41,373 bases of DNA, from IMG/VR virus record IMGVR_UViG_3300028563_000037, positions 1-41,373 of that record; one strand, 5' to 3'. Shown here piece after piece: positions 7,605 through 20,212 of the stretch; the first letter of the stretch is position 1; each line of letters begins with the position of its first letter. The notes beneath the pieces are model-generated. The model did not search any database. It saw only the letters and a program-made list of their open reading frames with translations, and was not told the DNA's origin. The DNA comes from a virus. The position numbers and the translations under genes were made by a program.

Positions 7605-7824
7605 CGGCGGCCCGTGCGAGGTGGTTCCAGTCCACATCGGGACGCAGCGCCTGCATGCGGACCTGACGGCCCGATTCACGGTCAATGGCGATGGCCAGGC
7701 CTTCGCCGCAGCGCCGGTTGCCGTATGCCACTTGGCGAAGGTACGCGACTGATGTGCCGCAACGCGCAGCGAACGCGGCTTGGTCTGCCGGGCGCAGACT
7801 ATTGAGGTAGTCCAGTAGTTTCAT
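7594..7824 (-). CDS. Cro-like/YdaS-type HTH regulator, 76 aa
   Basis: The N-terminal helix-turn-helix (LLDYLNSLRPADQAAFAARC, then GTSVAYLRQVAYGNRRCGE) is typical of YdaS/Cro-type proteins that stand divergent to a CI gene. It is the first gene of the minus-strand early operon and reads away from the repressor gene. The ATG at 7824 has AGGGAT upstream. It should bind the intergenic operators and lower repressor synthesis during lytic growth. Confidence 0.85.
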   Translation of the reverse strand: MKLLDYLNSLRPADQAAFAARCGTSVAYLRQVAYGNRRCGEGLAIAIDRESGRQVRMQALRPDVDWNHLARAAAHA

Positions 7825-7850
7825 CAGCTATCCCTAAATCGAATAGCCGA

Positions 7851-7879
7851 ACAATATCAAACGCTATTGATAAAAGCAA
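7851..7879 (-). promoter_or_regulatory. Early promoter for cro operon (pR-like) with operator in the spacer
   Basis: On the minus strand TTGCTT (7879-7874) and TATTGT (7856-7851) are 17 bp apart. The inverted repeat ATCAA-N6-TTGAT (7856-7871, ATCAATAGCGTTTGAT on the minus strand) fills the spacer. The whole promoter aligns without gaps to 9525-9553, identical at 25 of 32 bases when the flank is included. A regulator bound here would block polymerase. Confidence 0.65.
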
Positions 7880-7882
7880 TCT

Positions 7883-7899
7883 AATGATAGTGTATCATT
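7883..7899. promoter_or_regulatory. Perfect palindrome before the repressor gene
   Basis: AATGATA-GTG-TATCATT is a perfect 7-bp inverted repeat between the cro promoter and the repressor start. It is probably a second operator, or part of the repressor's own promoter control. TATCAT within it could serve as a -10. Confidence 0.55.
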
Positions 7900-7925
7900 T
7901 GCTAACTTTCTGGGAGAATTGCTCT

Positions 7926-8594
7926 ATGGACCGATCACAAAACCGCCTGAAGAAAGTTCACCAACTCGTTGAAGCCGCCGGAGGTCAGGCGCGCTTTGCA
8001 GAGATCGTGGGCATTTCCCCTTCTCAAGCCTGGCAGATCGCTGGAAGCTCGCCCGTCCGTGGCATCGGCAGCAAGATGGCCGCCCGTATCGAGCAGGCTT
8101 TTGACAAGCCGGCGGGCTGGTTGGATTGGCCCGACGACACCCCGCCTTTCATTGCAACTCCTAAAGCCGGGGAAGAATCCGCGGCTGTAGGCCGCAGAGT
8201 CCCCGTCATCAATTACGTGCAGGCCGGCAAGCTCACGGACATTGGGGCGCATTTCTGTGGAGAAGCTTTGGAATACCTGCTGACCGATATCCCCTTGTCG
8301 GACCGGGCGTTTGGCCTGGAGATTCGCGGCCTTTCGATGTCCCCCCAATTCGCTCCGGGTGACAAGATCATTGTTGACCAGGAGGTCGCCCCCAAGCCCG
8401 GCTCATACGTGGTCGCGATGAACGGCGGCGACGAGGCGACATTCAAGAAATATCGCCCTCGCGGGTTGGATGCCAACGGCAACGATGTCTTTGAGCTGGT
8501 TCCATTGAACGAAGACTTTCCGTCGTTCTATAGCGACAGACAGGAATTAGTAATCATCGGGACGATGGTTGAGCATCGCCGCTACTATCGTTAG
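7926..8594 (+). CDS. CI-like repressor with S24 self-cleavage domain, 222 aa
   Basis: The N-terminal HTH (about residues 20-45, QARFAEIVGISPSQAWQIAG) binds operators. The C-terminal LexA/CI peptidase domain has an Ala100-Gly101 cleavage bond (YVQAG), the nucleophile S137 (GLSMSP) and the general base K174 (DEATFKKY). It therefore keeps what is needed for RecA-stimulated self-cleavage and SOS induction. I take ATG at 7926 with GGGAGAA upstream; an earlier in-frame start at 7884 falls within the operator palindrome. The next gene follows nine bases on in the same operon. Confidence 0.93.
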   Translation: MDRSQNRLKKVHQLVEAAGGQARFAEIVGISPSQAWQIAGSSPVRGIGSKMAARIEQAFDKPAGWLDWPDDTPPFIATPKAGEESAAVGRRVPVINYVQAGKLTDIGAHFCGEALEYLLTDIPLSDRAFGLEIRGLSMSPQFAPGDKIIVDQEVAPKPGSYVVAMNGGDEATFKKYRPRGLDANGNDVFELVPLNEDFPSFYSDRQELVIIGTMVEHRRYYR

Positions 8595-8603
8595 GACGAG
8601 TTG

Positions 8604-9389
8604 ATGCCATTCCAGTGCTTTGACCCCTACAAAACTTTCTCGGACGCGGCCGGAGTTAAGCGATTTGCGCCCGTGCCGAGTGGCCGCAATATTTGGTCGG
8701 ACCAAGAGAACGATGCCGACGTCCAGGCTTTGTGGCATCTGGGGAAAAAGGTCTATGACTGCTTGGAGGTCACCGACGAAGCGGAGTTCCGCGAGATGGT
8801 GGCGGGTCTACTGATCACCATCGAAGAGCTCCGCGATGTCTTGCTTCAGCGGTCGCTCAGGATTGGGCTGAAGGTCGGCCACACTGTGGTAACGTCGGCT
8901 GAAGACATCCGGAAGCGGGTAGCTGAACTAGAGCGATCAGCAGTGGTAGATGCCTGCTATCAACTCGTTTCCCGCCGGCCGCTGGATGATTCGCTGTGGC
9001 CATTTTTCTCAGGCCTTTACCTCATGGGCGCATTGCTCGAGATCGACTATGCGCTTATCCAAAATGACTTAAAGGACGGCGGGGCAATCCAATCGGCATT
9101 GCTGGCCGCCGAAATGCTGGACCGTGCGCGAGCGTTGATGCCGCACGAAAATAGCTTGCGGTTGGCACGCAGGCAGTTAGCTACTAACGCGGCAGTTGCC
9201 AAGCTCAACAATGACCCAAGACAAGCCGATAAGCGTTTCGTACGCGAGTGTTGGGACGGGTGGCAATGTGAGCCGGAGCGGTATGAGAGCCAAGCGGCGT
9301 TCGCTCGAGACATGATGGCGAAATGCGCCCACCTCACCAGCGTTGCAGTTGTGGAACGTTGGTGCCGAGCCTGGAAGCAGACCCCCTAA
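8604..9389 (+). CDS. Unknown protein co-transcribed with the repressor (rex position), 261 aa
   Basis: Its AGGA ribosome site overlaps the repressor's stop codon, so the two are almost certainly expressed together in the lysogen. The body is mainly helical. The C-terminal 30 residues (AAFARDMMAKCAHLTSVAVVERWCRAWKQ) look like a small helical motif, possibly DNA- or protein-binding. No catalytic site is visible. In lambda the equivalent place between cI and pL holds rexAB, so superinfection exclusion or lysogen fitness is a fair guess, but only a guess. Confidence 0.75.
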   Translation: MPFQCFDPYKTFSDAAGVKRFAPVPSGRNIWSDQENDADVQALWHLGKKVYDCLEVTDEAEFREMVAGLLITIEELRDVLLQRSLRIGLKVGHTVVTSAEDIRKRVAELERSAVVDACYQLVSRRPLDDSLWPFFSGLYLMGALLEIDYALIQNDLKDGGAIQSALLAAEMLDRARALMPHENSLRLARRQLATNAAVAKLNNDPRQADKRFVRECWDGWQCEPERYESQAAFARDMMAKCAHLTSVAVVERWCRAWKQTP

Positions 9390-10342: not shown

Positions 10343-10668
10343 AAGCGCCTTTCATCATTCGTACCGAGGGCCGGGACGTCAGATTCTGCATCGGCGCCGG
10401 GCCGGCAGATCTCGACGCCGCGGATGCGCTCGCCGCTAATCCGCTTGCTCCGGCCGAGGTTTTGGTGTCGGCCGCGGAAGAGCGGATCGACCGCATCAAG
10501 GTGCTCACCGCGCCGTTCGGGTACATCCCGGCCGAAGGCATAGACCCCATCCCTGCATACGTGTTGAGCGATTTCCTGTGCACACTCGGCGCGATCGCCA
10601 ACGAAGCCAACCAGTTGCTGGACCAGGCCGCCACGCTCCGGCACGAAGCCAAGCGGGGTGAAGCATGA
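10339..10668 (+). CDS. Unknown protein, 109 aa
   Basis: It starts with an ATGA overlap at 10339. The N-terminal third is beta-like (FIIRTEGRDVRFCIG) and the remainder helical. No catalytic or metal-binding pattern is visible. It sits in the coupled early operon. Confidence 0.6.
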   Translation: MKAPFIIRTEGRDVRFCIGAGPADLDAADALAANPLAPAEVLVSAAEERIDRIKVLTAPFGYIPAEGIDPIPAYVLSDFLCTLGAIANEANQLLDQAATLRHEAKRGEA

Positions 10669-10907
10669 GCCAGCGCCCGACCTACCAAGAAGCGGCCGAC
10701 GCCCTGCGGCGCGCCCAGGAGACTCTCCTGCAAGTCAACTCGTTGTTGTGCGTGATTCGCTATTCCACCCAGTCCGGCAAGCAGGACCAGTTGAACGTTC
10801 TGGACATGGCCGAGATTGCGATCCACCTTTCCGGCGAAATGGCCGAGATGACCGAGGAATGGGCGGATCTGTTCAAGGCAGCAGTTCAAAAAGGGGGCGC
10901 CAAGTGA
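10665..10907 (+). CDS. Unknown helical protein, 80 aa
   Basis: It is coupled by ATGA to the gene before and by GTGA to the gene after. The protein is almost wholly helical and acidic at the end (GEMAEMTEEWADLFKAA). The family is not recognised. Confidence 0.6.
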   Translation: MSQRPTYQEAADALRRAQETLLQVNSLLCVIRYSTQSGKQDQLNVLDMAEIAIHLSGEMAEMTEEWADLFKAAVQKGGAK

Positions 10908-11152
10908 AATCCGTAAACGCCCCCGAACGCATCGTCCCCGACGTCGTCAGCGCCCGGCTGAACATCGAATGCATGGAGGAGCAGAAAGAGAGCCTACGGG
11001 CCTTGATCTCGGTCCTTCAAGGCCTTCTGGACCGCCCCGACACCGCACCCGACGTACGCACGTTGCTGAACATTGCCGCTCAAACGTGCGAAGACCACCA
11101 ACACTGGTACGGCTTGCGCGAAGCACTTGGCATAGGGGACAACGATGCATAA
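10904..11152 (+). CDS. Unknown protein, 82 aa (GTG start)
   Basis: The GTG at 10904 overlaps the preceding stop as GTGA. The centre (LNIECMEEQKESLRALISVLQGLL) is a likely amphipathic helix pair. It overlaps the next gene by eight bases. The family is not recognised. Confidence 0.6.
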   Translation: MKSVNAPERIVPDVVSARLNIECMEEQKESLRALISVLQGLLDRPDTAPDVRTLLNIAAQTCEDHQHWYGLREALGIGDNDA

Positions 11153-11405
11153 GCCCCGCACTCCTACCGAGCAGTTGGCCGCCGCCGTCCGAGGCCGCGC
11201 GCTGTACACGCGGCTCTACGACGAGGCCAAGCGCGAACTGGAGCAGGTCCGCGAACAGCTGACCAACGAGCGGATCCAACACGCCCAGGCCACCGCGGCA
11301 CTGGGCAACGTGGCCCACGCCCTGGAGACTGGCACGGCGCCGGACGTGGTCCTGGCCATGGTCCGCATCGCGCTGCGCATCACCCCCGGAGGGCAGCCGA
11401 TATGA
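11145..11405 (+). CDS. Unknown helical protein, 86 aa
   Basis: Residues 20-60 form a long charged helix, perhaps a coiled coil (YDEAKRELEQVREQLTNERI). Its start lies inside the end of the upstream gene and its end overlaps the next gene, in keeping with a tight operon. Confidence 0.6.
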   Translation: MHKPRTPTEQLAAAVRGRALYTRLYDEAKRELEQVREQLTNERIQHAQATAALGNVAHALETGTAPDVVLAMVRIALRITPGGQPI

Positions 11406-11617
11406 GCCTCGCTGATGACCTCGGCGACCTGGTGGTGGCTGTCGCCGCCACCGCCTCGGTTGCCTTTGCGCTCTACGTCACCCGCGACGTGACGCCCCCG
11501 GCCATATCGGCGGCCACTCGCTTTGTCGCCGAGTGCCCGACCACTATCCAATACGAAATCTGGCATGTCGGCCCGCAGCGGTCCATGCAGATCACATGCG
11601 AAGGACCCGCACGATGA
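11402..11617 (+). CDS. Small protein with one hydrophobic segment, 71 aa
   Basis: Residues 8-26 (LGDLVVAVAATASVAFALY) could be a membrane anchor or signal sequence. A Cys-containing tail of about 40 residues follows. It is ATGA-coupled on both sides. The function is unknown. Confidence 0.55.
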   Translation: MSLADDLGDLVVAVAATASVAFALYVTRDVTPPAISAATRFVAECPTTIQYEIWHVGPQRSMQITCEGPAR

Positions 11618-12093
11618 AAAATCGCCTGCAAGAATCGCTCGTGGACATTCGGTCTCACATCGCATTGCTCCGCGAACAGCGCGCTGCCCTCGGCAAGGCA
11701 TCGGCCGGTGAAGATGTCCCCCTCGGCGACCTGCCATCAATACTCGGCGTGGGCGCCGACCTGCTCGAGCTGCTGCTCGATGAATGCTTGGCCGCTCGAC
11801 GCGCGGCCACCGGGATCCAGTACCAATCCCTTTCCGAAATCGCCGCCGGCGCCGGCATCAGCGCGGATGAGTGCTTCCACGCCCTGGCGTTCTTGGGCCT
11901 GGCGCGGGGAAACCTCGCCCGCCACCGCGCGACCCTGGTCGGCCAGCGCCTCAGCACCTCGGACGGTCGCTGGGATGCCCGCGTACGCGACATGATCGAG
12001 GCCCAGATCGAGACCTGGCGGGCGTCGACCGATATCGGCCTGTTCCTGCGCACAATCGCCGATGCGGAGTCGTCCATGGGAGACCTCAAATGA
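11614..12093 (+). CDS. Possible winged-helix regulator, 159 aa
   Basis: It starts at the ATGA overlap at 11614. After a helical N-terminal part, SLSEIAAGAGISADECFHALAFLGLARG reads like a winged-helix recognition module, with a helical C terminus. It could regulate the operon or a host gene; no family is certain. Confidence 0.6.
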   Translation: MKNRLQESLVDIRSHIALLREQRAALGKASAGEDVPLGDLPSILGVGADLLELLLDECLAARRAATGIQYQSLSEIAAGAGISADECFHALAFLGLARGNLARHRATLVGQRLSTSDGRWDARVRDMIEAQIETWRASTDIGLFLRTIADAESSMGDLK

Positions 12094-14836: not shown

Positions 14837-14884
14837 TCGCATCACCCCAACTTTCCGCCCTCTTCCTACGTGGGGCCGACGCCG

Positions 14885-15205
14885 ATGGCAAAAAAACCAA
14901 AAGTGACTGCAACCGCCAAGAAAGAAGTATTGACTTGCTCCTTTTGCGGCAAGCACAAGAATCAGGTTCGCAACCTGCTCGCCGGCCCCGGCGTGAGTAT
15001 CTGCAACGAGTGCATCGAGGCAGCCGTAGAGCTGATAGACAACGCCGGGTGGGAAGTGGCCAGGACGCCAACAGACAAGGCGCTCTTTATTGCGGACCAG
15101 GAGCGGCTTGTAGCACGCAAGGCCGCCATGCTTGGCTTGTGGCGGCAGCAGTTAAGCAGCTTGACGGATGGCGCCCCCGCGCGCAGCGACACCGCACTGC
15201 ACTGA
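14885..15205 (+). CDS. Stand-alone ClpX-type zinc-finger protein 2, 106 aa
   Basis: This is a second free ClpX zinc-binding domain: [19 protein letters not shown], then [14 protein letters not shown]. It is closer to the ClpX consensus than its neighbour (Gly after the first CxxC, PG before the second). The C-terminal 55 residues differ from protein 1. The ATG at 14885 lies in a poor ribosome-site context. The tandem pair looks like an old duplication that has diverged. Confidence 0.8.
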
Positions 15206-15213
15206 CCCTATCG

Positions 15214-15486
15214 ATGCAGCGCGACCATAGCCTGGTTGCGTTGCGCTATGATGCCCCCACCACCGAACCAACGGTGGGCGGGCGTGGAAACCCGGATACA
15301 CAAGGCGCACTTGGGCCGCGCCGTGGTTTGTCGCGGCCTCTTCGTGCCCATCGCTTTTGCGCGTCCTCTATGGCGGCGCCAAGCGGGGCCAGCTTCGGCT
15401 GGGCCGGTTCCTTGTGCCCGGTTTTCCACCCCCGTTTGTGCGCCGCCGCCCGCCCCCATGGAGGCCTTTCATGGTTCGATTTGTGA
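15214..15486 (+). CDS. Ash-like small protein, 90 aa (uncertain)
   Basis: The reading frame holds VGGRGNP and, later, MAAPSGASFGWAGSL. This spacing resembles the phage P4 Ash family (VGRGNP, then a Met-Val-Ala-Leu-Val-Gly-Gln-Pro-like block), which is also found next to integrase or AlpA genes. The end overlaps the excisionase start. The ribosome site is weak and the rest of the sequence is not distinctive, so I treat this as a suggestion. Confidence 0.4.
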   Translation: MQRDHSLVALRYDAPTTEPTVGGRGNPDTQGALGPRRGLSRPLRAHRFCASSMAAPSGASFGWAGSLCPVFHPRLCAAARPHGGLSWFDL

Positions 15487-16902: not shown

Positions 16903-16930
16903 TGGTGCGAAGGAGGGGACTCGAACCCCT
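16903..16930 (-). other. attP core: 3' end of a tRNA-Leu-like gene
   Basis: On the minus strand this is the T arm AGGGG-TTCGAGT-CCCCT, the acceptor 3' half CCTTCGC, A and CCA. The rest of a tRNA is absent: no GCGAAGG 5' half lies upstream on that strand. It is thus a tRNA tail carried by the phage to restore the target gene on integration. The acceptor sequence is typical of tRNA-Leu. Arm-type sites were not resolved; 16931-17057 is otherwise non-coding. Confidence 0.8.
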
Positions 16931-17057
16931 ACACAACCCAGTGTTCATGCGGGTTTCCAGCCTTATGTTGTCAGTAGGCTGTCATTACGACGGAGCGGTC
17001 TGGGCTGCGCTTCTCTGCCCAGGCCTATACTTGCCCCTAGATCGTGAGGGGGGTTCC

Positions 17058-17723
17058 ATGTGCAGCCATTACCAGACCCTGAAGGACGCCGAGCTGCTGC
17101 TGAAGAAGTTCGGCGCGCCCAACAAGCCGGCCGGCGCCAAATACGACATGTGGCCCGGTTACGACGGCGTCATCGTGCGCAGGCCGCCGGAACATGACTC
17201 GGGCGACGAAGCCGTACCGGAGCGGGAGGCAGTGGTGGGCCGCTGGGGCATGATTCCACCAGGCACGCCAGCGGCGAAGTTACCCAGCGCCTGCAAGGTA
17301 CCCACCTTCAATGCGCGGTCCGAAACGGCGTATAAGCTTTGGACGTTTCGAAATGCATGGGCGAAGGCCCAGCGCTGCATCCTCCCGGCGGACGCCATCT
17401 TCGAACCCGACTGGCGGTCAGGCGCCGCGGTGGCCACCCGGTTCACCCGGGCTGATGGCGCGCCGCTGGGCATTGCAGGCCTGTGGGACCGCTGGCGCGA
17501 TGAAGCCGGCCAGGAGCAGATCAGCTACACCATGCTCACCATCAACGCCGATCAGGATCCACTCTTCCGCGATTACCACCAGGCCGGCAAGGAAAAGCGC
17601 ATGGTCGTGATCCTGCCGGAAGGCGCCTACGGCGAATGGCTGACCGCGCCGGCAGATGCCACACGGGATTTCCTGGTGCCTTTCCCCGCCGACAAGCTTG
17701 TCGCATCGCCTATGGCGAAATAG
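17058..17723 (+). CDS. SRAP (SOS response-associated peptidase, YedK/HMCES family), 221 aa
   Basis: Cys2 (MCSHYQ) becomes the N-terminal catalytic Cys after Met removal. FNARSETA, RCILPADAIFEPDW and the late YHQAGKEKRMVVIL block are family hallmarks. Family members form a thiazolidine crosslink with abasic sites in single-stranded DNA and shield them. A plus-strand accessory gene just beyond attP, it faces the small minus-strand gene at 17727. It differs from most relatives in having SHYQ for GRY/GRF at the start. A phage copy may protect replicating phage DNA. Confidence 0.9.
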   Translation: MCSHYQTLKDAELLLKKFGAPNKPAGAKYDMWPGYDGVIVRRPPEHDSGDEAVPEREAVVGRWGMIPPGTPAAKLPSACKVPTFNARSETAYKLWTFRNAWAKAQRCILPADAIFEPDWRSGAAVATRFTRADGAPLGIAGLWDRWRDEAGQEQISYTMLTINADQDPLFRDYHQAGKEKRMVVILPEGAYGEWLTAPADATRDFLVPFPADKLVASPMAK

Positions 17724-18324: not shown

Positions 18325-18402
18325 CCGGTCACGCAATCTCGATCCGAGGTAGCACGTCGGCAAACTGTTATTCTTACTTACTAATTCAAAGAAGAGGCAG
18401 GA

Positions 18403-19692
18403 ATGACTTGCGAGATTATTGTGGCGAATCGCCTGGGAATCGCCTTGGCCGCCGATAGTGCCGTAACGTTTAGCGGCACCAATGGGACCACCTACGCATC
18501 AGGCGCCAACAAGATCTTTCAGCTCGCGTCCAATGAACCCGTCGCAATAATGATCTACAACGGCGCTACGCTGAATACCATTCCGTGGGAAATTTTGATC
18601 AAGGCTTACCGAAGAAAGCTAGCTCAGAAAAGTTTCGAAAATCTTACGGCATATCGCGATGACTTATTGGAATTTCTGAATGACAAGACCAATCCTGCGA
18701 TCCACCGCGAAGTTCGCATGCTCGACGCCCGGACTGCTTACGCCAATTGTGCTGGCTATCTTTACAACTTGATCCAACATCAGGCGCCGGGTTTATTTGA
18801 TCCAACGACACCAGGAGCCACCTGGACCCCGACCTATCTCGCGGTATCCGATACGATCGATGCTGATTTAGCGATGGTGCCGGTGATCTCATGCCTTGAC
18901 CCTGCAGATATGACGCAAGCGTTAGTAGAAGAGAAAATTCCGCTTGCTGAGCAAATCACCTCTTTCGTTGAAGCCCAGGTTCCCCACCTTGTCGGCGTAA
19001 TTGATCCAGAACGCTTGGCTGCCCAAGCTATCGAAACAGCTTTCAAACATGGATTGGAGCTTCTGGACAAACGATACACCGGGCTAGTGATTGCCGGCTT
19101 TGGTAAGGGCGAGTATCTCCCGAGCTATTTGAGCCTGCATTGTTTTGGTTTTGTCGGCAATAGGCTCTTGTGGAAGCCGGAAGCACAGGGCGACATCAAT
19201 CACGGTATCACAGCATCTTTAATCCAAGGATTTGCCCGGCAGGCAATGATCGAAACATTTACGCTAGGAGCAAGCCCCGAAATCTGGCGAAGTATCGGAC
19301 AGGCTTTCAAGCGGCACGCAGCCGAGGCGTGCATGGTTGCCGCACGGCACGGCAACGTGTCAATCAGTGAGCAGGATGTTCAGCGGGCGGTTGACGAAGT
19401 TGCTGCGGCGTTCAACCAACAATGGACATACACAACAATTGATGCGCATCTCAATCCACTACGTGCGATTGTTGCAGGATTGGCTCTTGAAGAGTTGGCA
19501 GAACTAGCGGAAAATCTCGTAATGCTGGAGTCGCTGAAAGAAAAAGTTACAAGTCGGACTCAATCCGTTGGTGGCCCGATCGATCTGGCTGTGATCACCA
19601 AGGAAGAAGGATTGGTCTGGATCAAGCGTAAACACTACTTCGACCCAGCCCTGAACCAGCGATACATCCAACGATTGAAACAAGCGAACTGA
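18403..19692 (+). CDS. Proteasome-like N-terminal-threonine hydrolase, 429 aa
   Basis: The N terminus aligns with proteasome beta subunits, HslV and Anbu. Thr directly follows Met (Thr1 after processing). LGIALAADSAVT puts an Asp at position 17, as in HslV. Lys36 lies in NKIFQL, where the family has Lys33. A later block, GLVIAGFGKGEYLPSYLSLHCFG, resembles the core strand around the beta-subunit GxG turn. At 429 residues it is about twice HslV or Anbu length, with a large helical C-terminal part. The cassette is visibly richer in A+T than its neighbours. It precedes a 73-residue partner gene by ten bases. Substrate and partner ATPase are unknown. Confidence 0.7.
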   Translation: MTCEIIVANRLGIALAADSAVTFSGTNGTTYASGANKIFQLASNEPVAIMIYNGATLNTIPWEILIKAYRRKLAQKSFENLTAYRDDLLEFLNDKTNPAIHREVRMLDARTAYANCAGYLYNLIQHQAPGLFDPTTPGATWTPTYLAVSDTIDADLAMVPVISCLDPADMTQALVEEKIPLAEQITSFVEAQVPHLVGVIDPERLAAQAIETAFKHGLELLDKRYTGLVIAGFGKGEYLPSYLSLHCFGFVGNRLLWKPEAQGDINHGITASLIQGFARQAMIETFTLGASPEIWRSIGQAFKRHAAEACMVAARHGNVSISEQDVQRAVDEVAAAFNQQWTYTTIDAHLNPLRAIVAGLALEELAELAENLVMLESLKEKVTSRTQSVGGPIDLAVITKEEGLVWIKRKHYFDPALNQRYIQRLKQAN

Positions 19693-19702
19693 CGAGGATC
19701 TT

Positions 19703-19924
19703 ATGAGCACCAACTTCATTGTGGGCAATGCTCTCAACCCTAATCTACCCTTGCCGAACTTTGGATTCACTAGCCGTCCTACCGCTTCCAACGAAAGCGC
19801 GCCACAGTCACAGCTGAGTGAAGAAGATATGCGCACATATCTCAACCAGCGCCGTGAGTTTGAGAAGATGGAGCAGTTCACCCAGAACACTCGAACCATG
19901 TTGTTCGCTCCTATGCAGCCGTAA
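19703..19924 (+). CDS. Small partner of the proteasome-like protein, 73 aa
   Basis: It lies ten bases after the hydrolase gene with its own GAGGAT site and is closed by a strong terminator, so the two form one unit. The N-terminal half is Asn/Pro/Phe-rich and probably extended. The C-terminal half is one helix (EEDMRTYLNQRREFEKMEQF) ending MLFAPMQP. It could be a substrate, inhibitor or adaptor; no family is recognised. Confidence 0.65.
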   Translation: MSTNFIVGNALNPNLPLPNFGFTSRPTASNESAPQSQLSEEDMRTYLNQRREFEKMEQFTQNTRTMLFAPMQP

Positions 19925-19939
19925 CAAACAGAGTTCGTG

Positions 19940-19970
19940 AAAAAGGTCGCCAGACGGGCGGCCTTTTTTT
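19940..19970. terminator. Strong bidirectional intrinsic terminator
   Basis: AAAAAGGTCGCC pairs with GGGCGGCCTTTTT (12 bp, one G-T pair), loop AGAC, with seven T's on the plus strand. It separates the accessory cassette from the convergent lysis and tail operon. Confidence 0.88.
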
Positions 19971-19984
19971 CGCCTTCATATCGC

Positions 19985-20212
19985 TCACGGCGCCGCGTGA
20001 CACAACCTCCCCCAGGTCGCATTGCGATCCAGGATTTGTCTCGCAATTGGTCGCGGCGTGCCGTCGACCTGCGCCGCCGAATCAAAGTAGATTGGGCGGG
20101 CGTGGTCGCAGTACTCAACGCCCACCCTTGCCGCTGGGGCCCCGCACCCAGCTAGACTTAAGCTCATCAGCAACAGCATCATCATCCTTGCGGGCCACGT
20201 CGTCCTGCACAT
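19985..20212 (-). CDS. Rz1-like outer-membrane spanin lipoprotein, 75 aa
   Basis: The signal peptide is followed by lipobox SLAGC, with C23 lipidated after cleavage. The mature part is about 53 residues with CDHARPIYFDS. It begins inside the Rz gene in another frame (98-bp overlap), the usual nested Rz/Rz1 arrangement, and has a perfect AGGAGG site. With Rz it fuses inner and outer membranes in the last step of lysis. Confidence 0.85.
   Translation of the reverse strand: MCRTTWPARMMMLLLMSLSLAGCGAPAARVGVEYCDHARPIYFDSAAQVDGTPRPIARQILDRNATWGRLCHAAP

Follow-up and report, generated by a model that had tools for sequence, protein, structure and literature searches.

The window, a 41,373-nucleotide stretch from IMG/VR record IMGVR_UViG_3300028563_000037, is a lambda-like prophage or phage, with a CI-like repressor at 7884, an integrase at 15236, a spanin at 20115, and portal and terminase genes at its right end. 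A two-gene cassette separates the integrase side from the lysis genes and runs on the opposite strand to the latter. The first gene (18403–19692, + strand) encodes a 429-residue predicted proteasome-like Ntn hydrolase of the PMI-4 type (phrog_5990) that starts with Met-Thr. The second (19703–19924, + strand) encodes a small partner of 73 residues and begins 10 bases past the hydrolase stop codon, just as the initial annotation had placed it. The strong terminator described after the pair is borne out by a terminator-like hairpin ending in a T run (19939–19969, + strand), whose 13-bp stem pairs 19939–19951 with 19957–19969. The folded stretch has a dG of −23.1 kcal/mol (z = −3.9). A simple terminator scan overlooked the hairpin at 19939–19969; the presumed reason is that its stem includes the T run. 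Consistent with the described A+T richness, the GC content of the window is lowest at the cassette, 51.0% versus 62.3% for the rest, and no dedicated ATPase was seen nearby, again as first described.

Two other genes of the window lie near the integrase. A small protein encoded just upstream of it (14870–15205) carries a putative ClpX-like four-cysteine zinc finger. Beside the integrase, a phrog_1599 protein (16905–17723), read from an internal Met and with an MCSHY start, resembles what we take to be an SOS-response-associated peptidase of the SRAP/HMCES type.

The cassette DNA (18361–19911, + strand) is shared at 72% identity with a locus (L098) that encodes a 79%-identical relative of the hydrolase. 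The immediate flanks of that locus have no match, and its other shared segments lie elsewhere, indicating that the pair travels as a single unit. Bordetella phage PHB09, which is partly colinear with the window over the lysis and tail genes, has other genes in the cassette slot. We read the pair as a GC-poor moron that occupies a variable slot next to the lysis genes, and both comparisons agree with its earlier description as a self-contained moron.

Fold and family of the hydrolase

The hydrolase matches phrog_5990 in PHROGs over its full length (E = 6.5e-75), but phrog_5990 is itself a cluster of unknown function whose mechanism is not known. Searches of Pfam, NCBIfam and PADLOC returned nothing significant. 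The A1 profile recovered 490 relatives from the GTDB genomes and 175 from IMG/VR. We examined conservation in 129 non-redundant relatives, clustered at 80% identity, counting the rows that have the residue. The predicted nucleophile Thr2 (codon 18406–18408, + strand), which becomes Thr1 once Met is removed, is invariant (124/124), as are Asp18 (18454–18456, + strand; 127/127) and Lys37 (18511–18513, + strand; 127/127), the counterparts of proteasome Asp17 and Lys33. Ser19 also shows no variation where present, and further invariant positions include Gly232, Gly234, Trp406, Lys410, Phe413 and Asn418. Because the loci of the collection were gathered through C-terminal peptide patterns, the search does not account for the invariance of the N-terminal catalytic set, whereas it partly accounts for the conservation of the C-terminal motifs.

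Methionine aminopeptidase removes Met before Thr. Family relatives that have the N-terminal end begin with Met-Thr, and no propeptide is therefore predicted. The oxyanion-hole Gly47 of the proteasome likely corresponds to position 53, which is occupied by Gly in 87 of the 129 relatives, by Asn in 29 and by Asp in 9; the window reads Asn53-Gly54 there. Proteasome Ser169 aligns with a near-invariant Val389, so that second-shell chemistry may differ from that of classical subunits. A family profile searched against PDB sequences placed Thermoplasma proteasome beta at the top (E = 0.005), aligned in two collinear stretches, Thr1–Lys33 and the strand GG-IDVAVI. HHalign set Thr1, Asp17 and Lys33 in register with HslV and proteasome chains, on shallow templates. 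The catalytic set named in the initial annotation (Thr1/Asp17/Lys36, numbered after Met removal) thus lines up with that of HslV, and in homologues, where variation would have spoken against it, Thr2, Asp18 and Lys37 vary nowhere.

An AlphaFold2 model built with 107 family sequences (pLDDT 93.8, pTM 0.90) predicts a proteasome-type alpha-beta-beta-alpha sandwich. Each of the best 50 PDB matches listed by Foldseek was a chain of a proteasome or of Anbu (best E = 2.3e-4), and the second match in a viral library was a phage protein that bears the name 'Proteasome beta type-2 subunit'. Structure prediction and fold search therefore agree on the Ntn sandwich that had been anticipated. In the model, strands (residues 3–54) lead into helices (62–93), an insertion (102–220), strands (226–278), a helix (281–288), another insertion (292–358), a helix (362–383) and strands (393–408), with final core strands at 393–399 and 403–408. 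The helices taken as H1/H2 span residues 62–73 and 81–93, and the strands that we assign as S3 and S4 are joined by a loop of about 2 residues. By model secondary structure, the first helical insertion (about residues 102–220; 18706–19062, + strand) follows H1/H2, a site that we compared with the published survey of proteasome homologues (PMC8665760), and the second (about residues 292–358; 19276–19476, + strand) separates the helices assigned as H3 and H4. The length of 429 residues and the extra helices noted at the outset hold, but the helices had been assigned to a C-terminal part; in the model they are internal, at two sites in the sandwich that reach, in their widest delimitation, over about residues 95–222 and 290–358.

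That survey, by Fuchs, Alva and Lupas (2021), describes 22 proteasome-like families (PMC8665760), among them PMI-4, or Proteasome homolog with Multiple Insertions 4, whose reference sequence is HDY66466.1. Of the PMI families, PMI-3 and PMI-4 have long insertions at both sites, after H1/H2 and between H3/H4; PMI-4 occurs in most bacterial phyla and Euryarchaeota and is the sole PMI family listed in phages and in so many phyla (PMC8665760). The modelled hydrolase carries a long insertion after H1/H2 (102–220) and another between H3 and H4 (292–358), and the relatives found extend across many bacterial phyla, Euryarchaeota and phages. By these features, insertion sites and distribution, the hydrolase probably belongs to PMI-4, with which it also shares the proteasome-like core and Thr1/Asp17/Lys33. 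It would add a new member to a family already described but still uncharacterised. The survey's authors found no genomic context or co-occurrence pattern pointing to function, and PMI-4 as published comes without description of a near-constant small partner gene (PMC8665760). A literature search covering few subscription journals found no later functional paper on PMI-4.

Other proteasome relatives match less well. HslV and proteasome beta subunits have the same fold and catalytic Thr1/Asp17/Lys33, but the window hydrolase differs from them in about 190 residues of helical insertions, the lack of a propeptide, Val389 in place of Ser169, and no ATPase gene seen beside it. HslV itself, compact, free of insertions and partnered by HslU, was rejected: the protein has 429 residues with insertions, and neither HslU nor another ATPase partner is found among the most frequent neighbour families of its relatives. 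Connectase, a proteasome homologue from archaea that acts as a monomeric, sequence-specific protein ligase (PMC8665760), is likewise a Thr1 enzyme with a helical insertion and works without a ring or AAA+ partner. Its H1/H2 are absent, however, and its two-helix insertion sits between S3 and S4, whereas the modelled hydrolase has H1/H2 and a short S3–S4 loop; this identity was rejected too. PPH, also a phage-borne proteasome homologue, is a protein of only some 140 residues that has no H2 and falls in the HslV/BPH group, and was rejected in view of the 429 residues and the presence of helix 81–93.

Distribution and genomic neighbours

The family is patchy, found in about 1.5–2.8% of genomes per sampled group. 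Carriers numbered 11 of 397 Hyphomicrobiales, 4 of 199 genomes in the family of G002, 5 of 197 in the phylum of G003 and 3 of 198 in the order of G005, each count including the centre genome, itself chosen as a carrier. E. coli has the family gene in 9 of 5426 genomes, with the H3 copy inside a prophage region. This copy, like those in Pantoea and in Stenotrophomonas phage BUCT708, runs on the strand opposite to its neighbours, a setting seen at 9 of 33 viral loci versus 42 of 390 other genes (p = 0.01). With tblastn, the family gene was present in phages, streptococcal satellite phages and plasmids; it is last or second-last in 3 of the 4 satellite records read. Broken hydrolase copies occur in archaea and several Alphaproteobacteria (G003:C1:608309–608934; L011; L017; L193/L204; L221/L223), which fits an accessory, losable gene. 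One contig (L199) bears two family copies of the same length and equal score, 2.8 kb apart (7631–9055 and 10434–11858), either a tandem duplication or an assembly artefact.

No third gene is common to the family loci. At five alphaproteobacterial loci (L012, L016, L017, L015 and L021), carried by three plasmids of Rhizobium, one of Mesorhizobium and a Phenylobacterium contig, a cluster for ubiquitin-like conjugation is found near the hydrolase. Its genes encode multiubiquitin or Ubl and a ThiF-type E1, joined by a DUF6527-annotated or DUF6527-like gene in 4/5 and a ClpP-like gene in three. Genes for a helix-turn-helix protein and an ImmA/IrrE-like peptidase stand directly between the hydrolase and the Ubl cluster at L021. 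Since such neighbours were found at 0/10 further Hyphomicrobiales loci, we rejected a ubiquitin-like link as a family trait. At four Flavobacteriaceae loci (L038, L043, L049 and L074), the module occupies a conserved chromosomal position just downstream of hemB (ALAD), and a beta-lactamase-family gene is probably next in some of them.

These settings bear on what the pair does. It could be an anti-phage or superinfection-exclusion moron, in which the partner would restrain the hydrolase and infection would release it to cut a host or phage protein. Such a role would suit the occurrence in phages, satellite phages and plasmids, the last or second-last place in satellite records, the moron position with its opposite-strand setting, the patchy presence, and the conjugation genes near five alphaproteobacterial loci. 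The fixed position beside hemB in Flavobacteriaceae argues the other way, as do the absence of a PADLOC model match and the Ubl-free further Hyphomicrobiales loci. Around chromosomal relatives, moreover, an informal comparison gave similar PADLOC hits for near and far genes, with no clear enrichment of defence genes. We regard a defence role as possible but tentative.

The breadth of the family, many bacterial and archaeal phyla in diverse and often housekeeping surroundings and with no toxin-like context, would instead suit a general protein-quality peptidase, its partner serving as an assembly or docking subunit and phages having merely acquired the pair. Yet the low frequency per sampled group and the broken copies are unlike core proteostasis genes, and a separate HslV or proteasome match was present in 5 of 6 carriers checked. 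A general quality-control role is, on this evidence, doubtful.

A near-constant small partner

Searches of Pfam, PHROGs, NCBIfam and PADLOC gave no match for the window partner. We counted as a partner any ATG ORF of 40–80 aa with its start between −25 and +40 relative to the hydrolase stop. This rule was positive at 103 of 122 non-redundant family loci and, applied to other genes of these loci as controls, for 64 of 712; with a ribosome-binding site required, the counts were 78/122 versus 23/712 (Fisher p = 1.7e-56). Because the rule had been set after a first look at the same loci, it was repeated on a separately drawn sample of 15 loci obtained by genome sampling, a few of them close relatives of first-set loci, and 11 were positive. 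Differences between related partners (51 pairs) were distributed 734/618/1426 over codon positions 1/2/3, and by this sequence measure the partner ORF is under protein-coding selection. The initial annotation had asked whether the small gene always travels along; the two samples and the coding selection indicate that it generally does, and hydrolase and partner probably form one unit. In searchable papers, with few subscription journals covered, this near-universal PMI-4 partner appears unreported.

Partners are 41–78 aa long (median 59), mostly basic and Lys-rich, highly divergent, and predicted to be disordered. Family-wide, they matched seven PHROGs and three Pfam models, one member each and mostly weakly. 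The 49-aa partner ORF of E. coli H3 was left unannotated, so annotation can miss partners. An aromatic pair with Pro, [FYW][FYLN]x0-2P, is found in 47 of 115 partners versus 9 in shuffles, a pattern chosen post hoc among relatives that are not independent; the window partner has no clear copy. The partner is absent at a few loci (L217, L084, L054 and L094). Partnerless loci sometimes have a long hydrolase C-terminal tail (42 aa in L080, 60 aa in L015, 43 in L189 and 37 in L194), a hint that the tail can replace the partner; in L188, a doubtful case, tail and partner are both present. The L119 hydrolase, modelled with its stop read through into the partner (translation table 6), gave a partner pLDDT of about 50 falling to 28 and, judged by pLDDT, no sign of docking.

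A small, Lys-rich, predicted disordered chain encoded together with a Thr1 enzyme raises the idea of Connectase- or Pup-like ligation, in which an acyl bond would form at Thr1 with the partner, and the partner or another peptide would then be transferred to a target. Connectase sets a precedent as a monomeric, sequence-specific ligase among proteasome homologues (PMC8665760). The partners, however, have no shared C-terminal or internal ligation motif, a Pup-type GG, GGE or GGQ end occurs in 0 of 115, and the modelled hydrolase shares neither the connectase insertion site nor its helix loss, which leaves ligation an unlikely function. That the hydrolase works wholly on its own, the small ORF being no more than a chance reading frame, is hardly credible: partner sequences do align poorly across the family and match nearly no family models, but the excess over control genes, its recurrence in the second sample and the third-codon-position excess speak against it.

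Proposed mechanism and significance

We favor, as probable though well short of certain, a reading in which the cassette is a mobile two-gene unit that encodes a selective, ATPase-independent Thr1 peptidase or acyl-transferase of the PMI-4 type together with its cognate small partner. This reading builds on the computed fold, catalytic set, insertions and Met-Thr start of the hydrolase, on the conservation and coding selection of the partner, and on the mobility of the unit and its patchy distribution. Methionine aminopeptidase would expose Thr1, which would then, like its counterpart in proteasome subunits, attack a peptide or amide bond; this activity we infer. The helical insertions would limit access to the enzyme and probably keep it from forming ordinary stacked rings. 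Such restriction points to a selective peptidase, or acyl-transferase, that would act without an AAA+ unfoldase rather than as a general shredder. For the partner, we infer a role as regulator or substrate: the disordered small protein would be cognate to the enzyme, most simply as an inhibitor- or propeptide-like chain supplied in trans. In this prophage, the pair would be a moron that has a terminator to itself, runs opposite to the lysis genes and is probably expressed in the lysogen.

Some observations fit the selective Thr1 enzyme less well. The partner stays disordered in the L119 read-through model, Ser169 is replaced by Val389 in the alignment, and a few loci are missing the partner. 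A selective peptidase and a use in defence are not mutually exclusive. More speculatively, the pair may belong to a new two-component system of bacteria, archaea and viruses, in which a Thr1 enzyme would be controlled by, or would covalently process, a disordered mini-protein, serving as an immunity or conflict module of prophages and satellites.

Many proteasome-like families are without a function, and a fixed partner gene offers a first handle on that of PMI-4. In phages and their satellites, a relative of the proteasome is carried within a mobile unit of two genes, a finding that bears on the role of such enzymes before ring-shaped proteasomes and their ATPases.
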